Source of the DNA: Pyrococcus horikoshii OT3
GTDB lineage: Archaea; Methanobacteriota_B; Thermococci; Thermococcales; Thermococcaceae
Reading direction: 5' to 3'
Assembly (NCBI RefSeq): GCF_000011105.1
Contig: NC_000961.1
Coordinates: forward strand, 606,662-670,661
Length of the DNA: 64,000 bases
Part shown: positions 30,536-32,257 of the stretch, in pieces
How the letters are laid out: every line of letters starts with the position of its first letter
Position numbering within the stretch: position 1 is the first letter of the stretch
Position numbers and translations under genes: made by a program
Notes under the pieces: model-generated
Told to the model about the DNA's origin: nothing
Database searches by the model: none
The model's input: the letters and a program-made list of their open reading frames with translations, nothing else

Positions 30536-30545
30536 TTATGAGTGA

Positions 30546-31076
30546 AGATTTTTCGGTACACGATATTTGGGCTTATTTTTTGCTTTTTAATTTTGTTTGA
30601 GCTTAATTTTTGAAATAAAGTCCTTTGAGGAGTTAGGGTTTGATTTAGTAACCCAAAGTTACTATTTACTTTGTGTTACAATTTTGTTGTTAAATTGTGA
30701 CGAAGATTTTTCGAAAATTCTTGAATAGAATGCTAAAGATAAATTTTTAGAGAAGGTTTGAGAGATTCTGTTGGATTCTTGCAAAAAGTTAGAAGTCTGA
30801 TTAGTTAAGCTAGTTAAGTCTTTTCCTGGGATAGGGTGTGATAAGGATAAATTTTTCCCAGGGTGCTCTTGGGAGTATTATTAATTTAAAGCTCTAGGTA
30901 GGGTTAAATTTGTTTATAAAGTAGGTTCCTTGGTCTGACGTTGAAGCCAACGTGATAGTCGAGACCGAGAAATTTGTTTATAAAGTAGGTTCCTTGATAA
31001 GTCTAACACCCCGTAAGCCTTATAAATTCGAGTGATGTAGTCACTCCGTAGGAGAATTAGGACGAAAAAGCTCCCT
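30546..31076 (+). promoter_or_regulatory. CRISPR leader
   Basis: These 530 bases immediately upstream of the first repeat are AT-rich and hold no gene, as expected of a leader that directs spacer insertion and transcription. A clear TATA box, CTTATAAAT, lies at 31019-31027, about 50 bases before repeat 1, so the array is read on the plus strand. The leader also carries a 27-bp direct duplication (30906-30932 and 30970-30996), described separately. Confidence 0.75.
30906..30996 (+). repeat. 27-bp direct repeat flanking 37 bp inside the CRISPR leader
   Basis: Two identical 27-base copies (begin AAATTTGTTTATAAAG, end GTTCCTTG) lie at 30906-30932 and 30970-30996. They enclose 37 bases (30933-30969) that are about 54 percent G+C, richer than the surrounding leader. 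The 37-base length equals the commonest spacer length in the array. The unit therefore has the shape of one repeat-spacer-repeat module with a repeat unrelated overall to the array repeat. Its origin is inferred, not shown. Confidence 0.8.
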
Positions 31077-32257
31077 GTTCCAATAAGACTATAAGAGAAT
31101 TGAAAGTAACCTTAAGCGGGAGGGAACTTGTTGAGTTCATAAGGGGTTCCAATAAGACTATAAGAGAATTGAAAGACGACGTAATCAACCTCGAAAAGGG
31201 TTCCGCACCTGTTGTTCCAATAAGACTATAAGAGAATTGAAAGCGTGCTCTGGGTACGCTGTTGCTACGATGTGTGCAGGGGTTCCAATAAGACTATAAG
31301 AGAATTGAAAGTATAGATGTCGTCAAATCTATATAGATGCCGGTGGACGTTCCAATAAGACTATAAGAGAATTGAAAGGAGAGAAACGACAGGCTTACCT
31401 CCACTTTCAAGCCATGTTCCAATAAGACTATAAGAGAATTGAAAGTCAAGTTGATAAAATCATTGCCTGCTCAATATCTTTTGTTCCAATAAGACTATAA
31501 GAGAATTGAAAGAGCTCGGAAGAGGGCAGGATAGGAAAGTATGACGCAAGTTCCAATAAGACTATAAGAGAATTGAAAGTGTGTTGCATCGGACATGTTC
31601 AGGTATGAAATCCTTCGTTCCAATAAGACTATAAGAGAATTGAAAGTTCTTCCTTTCCAGCTCGTAACCCAGGGATTCGAGCCGTTCCAATAAGACTATA
31701 AGAGAATTGAAAGCGGCGAGCTAGATAAGAGGGAGGAGGACGCATTTAGAGGTTCCAATAAGACTATAAGAGAATTGAAAGACGCTAACGTCAGCATGGA
31801 AGACGTTTTGAAGGCTATAGTTCCAATAAGACTATAAGAGAATTGAAAGAACTTCGTACTCGACTAGCTCCTCCTCATCGTCCTCGTTCCAATAAGACTA
31901 TAAGAGAATTGAAAGATTTAAGATAGACGGGAGAGTACCCATGTAGCTGTCAAGTTCCAATAAGACTATAAGAGAATTGAAAGGAGTTCTATGTCGACTT
32001 TCACACTTGGGTTCCTTCTGTGTTCCAATAAGACTATAAGAGAATTGAAAGAAGCTTGAGGTTGTTCATTATAACGTGAAATGGGATGATGTTGTTCCAA
32101 TAAGACTATAAGAGAATTGAAAGTCTGGAAGGAAGGCAATACCAAAATCAGAGGTTGAGGTTCCAATAAGACTATAAGAGAATTGAAAGGAGGTTATCGG
32201 ACCAGGAGTCAAGCACCCAGGAGTTTGGTTCCAACAAGACTAAAATAGAATTGAAAG
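31077..32257 (+). CRISPR. CRISPR array, 18 repeats and 17 spacers
   Basis: Eighteen copies of a 30-base repeat (begins GTTCCAATAAG, ends GAATTGAAAG) start at 31077, 31146, 31214, 31282, 31349, 31416, 31483, 31550, 31617, 31684, 31752, 31820, 31886, 31954, 32022, 32094, 32160 and 32228. The first 17 are identical; the last differs at positions 8, 16 and 19. Spacers are 36-39 bases, mostly 37-38, except spacer 15, which is 42. The leader lies upstream, so new spacers enter at 31077. No cas gene is in the window; the proteins must act from elsewhere. The repeat is the type used by Pyrococcus Cas6-based systems. Confidence 0.99.

Follow-up and report, generated by a model that had tools for sequence, protein, structure and literature searches.

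A spacer-sized insertion flanked by a target duplication in a CRISPR leader of Pyrococcus horikoshii: a probable case of off-target integration

In spacer integration, Cas1–Cas2 links each 3´ end of a prespacer to a different strand of the target, at points about 30 bp apart, and gap filling then produces a spacer flanked by the duplicated target. The inserted DNA is expected to come from a protospacer located next to a PAM. Natural cases in which this reaction took place off target were reportedly found by Nivala and colleagues in Yersinia pestis and Sulfolobus islandicus. Fully resolved natural products of off-target integration are rarely documented. The phenomenon itself has been published for living cells (Nivala et al. 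2018, as cited in PMC9456107 and PMC11788318). In vitro, the type II-A Cas1–Cas2 complex also integrates off target, likely in half-site events and with a preference for leader-repeat-like sequences (PMC6895254). Furthermore, ectopic spacer acquisition has been described in S. thermophilus, where, to judge from the title of the report, integration occurs in the array (PMC5338259).

The locus analysed here lies in the leader of a CRISPR array (leader A and array A) of Pyrococcus horikoshii OT3. Like the cases of Nivala et al. (2018), it combines a spacer-sized insert, a duplicated target outside the array repeats and a genome with cas1 and cas2. Unlike them, it belongs to a Thermococcales archaeon and is placed within the leader of an array that looks live; its target is not repeat-like, its duplication is 27 bp rather than 29–31 bp, and its polarity can be read from an empty site in the same genome and from a conserved leader ruler. 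In comparison with canonical leader-end integration in Pyrococcus, the 37-bp spacer, a duplicated target about 30 bp long, the genome and, presumably, the enzymes are shared, whereas the site is about 80 bp upstream of the leader–repeat junction and the duplicated DNA is leader, not repeat. The S. thermophilus events are similar in the unusual position of acquisition, but the target in leader A is not a repeat. The parallel with the type II-A reactions is that Cas1–Cas2 would have acted on non-CRISPR DNA; here, however, the outcome would be a resolved full-site product in a genome, again at a target that is not repeat-like. With off-target integration already known, leader A offers a clear natural example for which the evidence on polarity is unusually good.

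The duplication, its insert and the empty site

The window analysed is a stretch of 64,000 nucleotides (NC_000961.1, positions 606,662–670,661) of the P. horikoshii genome, which consists of one contig of 1,738,505 bp. Coordinates are window positions unless a genome position is stated, and all window features are on the plus strand.

Leader A contains a 27-bp direct repeat, AAATTTGTTTATAAAGTAGGTTCCTTG, whose left copy (30906–30932, including a TATA-like TTTATAAA at 30913–30920) and right copy (30970–30996) are identical at 27/27 positions and cannot be extended on either side. The two copies enclose exactly 37 bp, GTCTGACGTTGAAGCCAACGTGATAGTCGAGACCGAG (30933–30969). A preliminary description of the sequence had reported this arrangement, and both the exact match and the positions were confirmed. 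A 30-bp duplication with later mutations was also considered, but it requires two changes among the three extra bases on either side, and 27 bp was therefore retained. The right copy is separated from repeat 1 of array A (31077) by 80 bp of intact proximal leader (30997–31076), which is conserved in the leaders of the family and carries a promoter-like TTATAAAT at 31020–31027.

The preliminary description had also noted an insert of about 54% G+C in an AT-rich leader, with one frame that reads as continuously coding-like. Both features stand: the G+C content is 54.1%, compared with 33% in the remaining leader A, and one frame is open throughout (SDVEANVIVETE). None of the 391 37-bp windows of leader A reaches the G+C content of the insert, which is inside the range of the genome's own spacers (mean 46%, SD 8), and the insert is thus spacer-like in composition. 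Its length also falls within the spacer length distribution of the genome. Array A (31077–32257) comprises 18 repeats, GTTCCAATAAGACTATAAGAGAATTGAAAG, the last one divergent, and 17 spacers of 36–42 bp. Although 37 bp had been described as the commonest length in this adjoining array, the most frequent spacer length there is 38 bp (7/17), with 37 bp in second place (6/17); pooling of arrays A, C and D, all of one repeat family, is needed for 37 bp to become modal (18/39).

The last repeat of array A, GTTCCAACAAGACTAAAATAGAATTGAAAG (32228–32257), has AAAATAG at its core, as is typical for arrays C and D, in place of the ATAAGAG of array A, a hint that array A changed its repeat type in the course of time. 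Genome positions 933791–938310 hold 67 repeats of a second CRISPR family, GTTTCCGTAGAACTAAATAGTGTGGAAAG, whose spacer lengths (36–58 bp) are more variable than those of the first family (33–42 bp).

A paralogous leader, leader B, is found at 974.3 kb of the genome on the minus strand, with a single copy of the 27 bp and without the insert. When leader A was compared with the genome by BLAST, two matches on leader B overlapped by exactly 27 bp (genome positions 974384–974410), and the reverse search with leader B as query gave the same 27-bp overlap (query 230–256), which means one copy in leader B and two in leader A. After removal of one copy and the insert, leader A gave a single 468-bp BLAST match to leader B with 74.6% identity. 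Global alignment of the two leaders, with the 64 bp removed from leader A, showed 350/463 identical bases (75.6%) and short gaps only. On these alignments, the 64 bp of leader A are a real insertion, the empty site being a paralogue in the same genome and one strain of the species being compared. A single-copy leader lacking the 37 bases, for which the preliminary description had recommended looking, is thus provided by leader B, in agreement with the genus-wide leader spacing described below. Array B, beside the empty leader (genome positions 974130–974301), is decayed, with three recognisable repeats and mutated ends; leader B is still 75% identical to leader A despite this decay.

With up to three mismatches allowed, the 37-bp insert is matched neither elsewhere in its own genome nor in 114 further genomes belonging to the class. 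Phage and plasmid records gave no source, plasmid matches at E-values of 1 or more being attributable to chance, and nothing was found in viral and genome contigs using degenerate peptide-coding patterns and exact 20–21-mers. With no source found in these searches, no PAM can be identified either. However, canonical array A spacers searched likewise gave no convincing match, and two 21-mers from these spacers had no match in viral contigs. Since true spacers are also unmatched, the missing source of the insert is uninformative. In another study, 33% of spacers had a match in a set of Thermococcales mobile elements from hydrothermal vents (PMC12934983).

Probable off-target integration and the choice of site

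The P. horikoshii genome encodes two Cas1b proteins, with genes at 152.2 and 1119.8 kb. Cas2 and Cas4 adjoin the first, the cas4 gene at 152 kb being intact, and a second Cas2, read by eye, is found near 1119.5 kb beside the second Cas1b. Another cas4, near 1120.7–1121.2 kb (L128:1182–1660) and beside the Cas1b of the repeat family of array A, forms one frame with a single in-frame stop codon, and represents either a decayed gene or a sequencing error.

The proposal that the adaptation machinery inserted a spacer-sized DNA at the wrong site and duplicated its target is strongly supported by the empty leader B, the leader spacing and the size of the insert. We consider it likely that leader A records a full-site off-target integration by Cas1–Cas2, the product of which is now an inert scar. 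According to this model, P. horikoshii Cas1–Cas2 loaded with a processed 37-bp prespacer, putatively of foreign origin, would have attacked the leader strands 27 bp apart, about 80–107 bp upstream of the leader–repeat junction. Gap filling would then have copied the 27-bp target to both sides, generating a one-spacer pseudo-array, and the resulting inert scar would widen the distance between the array and the distal elements of the leader by 64 bp. The length of the duplication counts against this reading: 27 bp is two to four shorter than the repeats of Thermococcales, which measure 29–31 nt (PMC12934983). Further points against it are a target that resembles the repeat no more than background does, in contrast to off-target sites of some systems such as type II-A (PMC6895254), the failure to find a protospacer or PAM, and an empty site that is a paralogue.

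The inertness of the product is suggested by its flanks. The 27-bp copies do not include ATTGAAAG, with which the true repeat ends on its 3´ side and from which the 5´ tag of the crRNA is formed, and the conserved promoter-like element of the leader is downstream of the insert. Both features make a processed crRNA unlikely, and the insert probably gives rise to none. It had been suggested that such an event could seed a new array, but no sign of this is seen; with one spacer only and flanks devoid of that repeat end, the locus is not classed as a functional (neo-)CRISPR array.

In canonical integration, the duplicated unit starts with GTTCC. The preliminary description had proposed that a sequence following the second copy, loosely similar to the start of the repeat, may explain the choice of site. 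This idea is not supported, because the similarity is at background level and GTTCC is located at the far, repeat-proximal end of the duplicated unit and not at its start, making the geometry wrong. The gapped match between GTTCCTTGATAAGTCTA and GTTCCAATAAGACTA is equalled or exceeded at 40% of the other leader positions and at 29% of genome positions. Comparison of the target with the repeats of both CRISPR families, ungapped and gapped, gave no signal, with 29–63% of background sites in the leader or genome scoring equal or better. A repeat-like target was therefore rejected as the reason for the site, and leader A suggests that a 27-bp target without resemblance to the repeat can be used.

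Alternative origins and the polarity of the event

The geometry of leader A was searched for in 464 kb of P. horikoshii, made up of the window and twenty stretches of 20 kb each, and in another 56 loci, most of them leaders of Thermococcaceae, adding up to 599 kb. Exact or near-exact direct repeats with a spacer-sized gap were limited to CRISPR repeats, duplicated repeat–spacer units, one in-frame repeat with a 60-base period and the leader A site; no other non-coding, non-array DNA with this geometry was detected in the 599 kb. In addition, the 27-mer was not found in a search of genome contigs. These scans bear on the alternative that fares best, in which the overhangs of a staggered break, 27 nt long, were filled in and a stray fragment of 37 bp became trapped between the ends as they were joined. 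Such a repair event is expected to leave the same flanking duplication around unrelated filler, and it would be in keeping with the absence of a detected protospacer. However, it needs a triple coincidence (a modal spacer length, proximity to a CRISPR array at about 80 bp, and a duplication of nearly repeat length), and no second insertion fossil of this kind was found either in the 464 kb of P. horikoshii or in the 56 further loci. We regard repair as improbable.

The polarity of the event can be assessed from the architecture of the leaders. The leaders of the family carry a distal element resembling ACGAAAATTTTTCGAAAATT, and its distance to repeat 1 was compared among leaders B, C and D of P. 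horikoshii and the Pyrococcus leaders of eight further genomes. In leaders B, C and D this distance is 319, 318 and 316 bp, respectively, and in those of the other genomes about 315–325 bp, with one (L105) at 328 bp, bearing in mind that several leaders have a weak match at this position, or a better-scoring one elsewhere, and that some leaders are near-identical copies. In leader A, the distal element ACGAAGATTTTTCGAAAATT (30700–30719) is 377 bp from repeat 1, and 313 bp once the 64 bp are subtracted. A second, farther element (30542–30561) is 535 bp from repeat 1, or 471 bp after subtraction, compared with mostly 469–488 bp elsewhere. Because the spacing of leader A fits that of the other leaders once 64 bp are subtracted, it points to a gain of 64 bp in leader A rather than a loss elsewhere. 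Moreover, the two 27-bp copies are identical while leaders A and B share 75.6% of their bases, which indicates that the event is recent compared with the divergence of A and B; had the duplication arisen at the time of that divergence, all 27 positions would still be identical with a probability of about 5e-4, barring gene conversion.

Both lines of evidence weigh on a second alternative, under which the longer leader, with its duplication and 64 additional bp, would be ancestral and leader B would have shed one copy when its two 27-bp repeats recombined. Direct repeats readily undergo such deletions, which would leave one copy behind. Nevertheless, the remaining Pyrococcus leaders examined, C and D of this genome among them, show the short spacing, and identical copies are hard to reconcile with leaders that differ at about 24% of positions, an objection that gene conversion could weaken. 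An ancestral long leader is therefore very improbable.

Transposase target duplications are usually shorter than 27 bp. The direct duplication would otherwise suit a small mobile element or a transposase by-product, to which we give hardly any weight, as 37 bp is too short for an element and no second copy (up to three mismatches) exists in the genome or in the 114 others of the class. An artefact of sequencing or assembly, conceivable insofar as the insert rests on one old genome of the species, is just as hard to credit, given perfect flanks around a unique, spacer-like DNA of modal length that is found nowhere else in the genome and is not expected from such errors.

Leader architecture and implications of a probable off-target integration

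Among the Thermococcaceae leaders checked, about three quarters have a TTTTCGAAAA-type element 310–325 bp upstream of repeat 1, and many have a second such element about 158 bp farther out. The constant spacing of these distal elements suggests a putative protein-bound leader architecture that would reach far beyond the promoter.

Off-target integration in leader A, the reading preferred here, has its own control in the empty paralogous leader B and a genus-wide ruler that polarises the gain, and it supplies a defined archaeal target sequence for in vitro tests. Products of this kind bear on the origin of new CRISPR arrays and on how tightly the integrase is restricted to its proper target. 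A broader and rather unlikely idea is that stray full-site integration in Thermococcales preferentially hits leader DNA, with the integrase brought there by the distal elements or by chromatin and not by the repeat. If so, insertions would seed new arrays or retune the leader by moving its distal elements, and a shift of 64 bp, about six helical turns, would keep these elements on the same face of the DNA.
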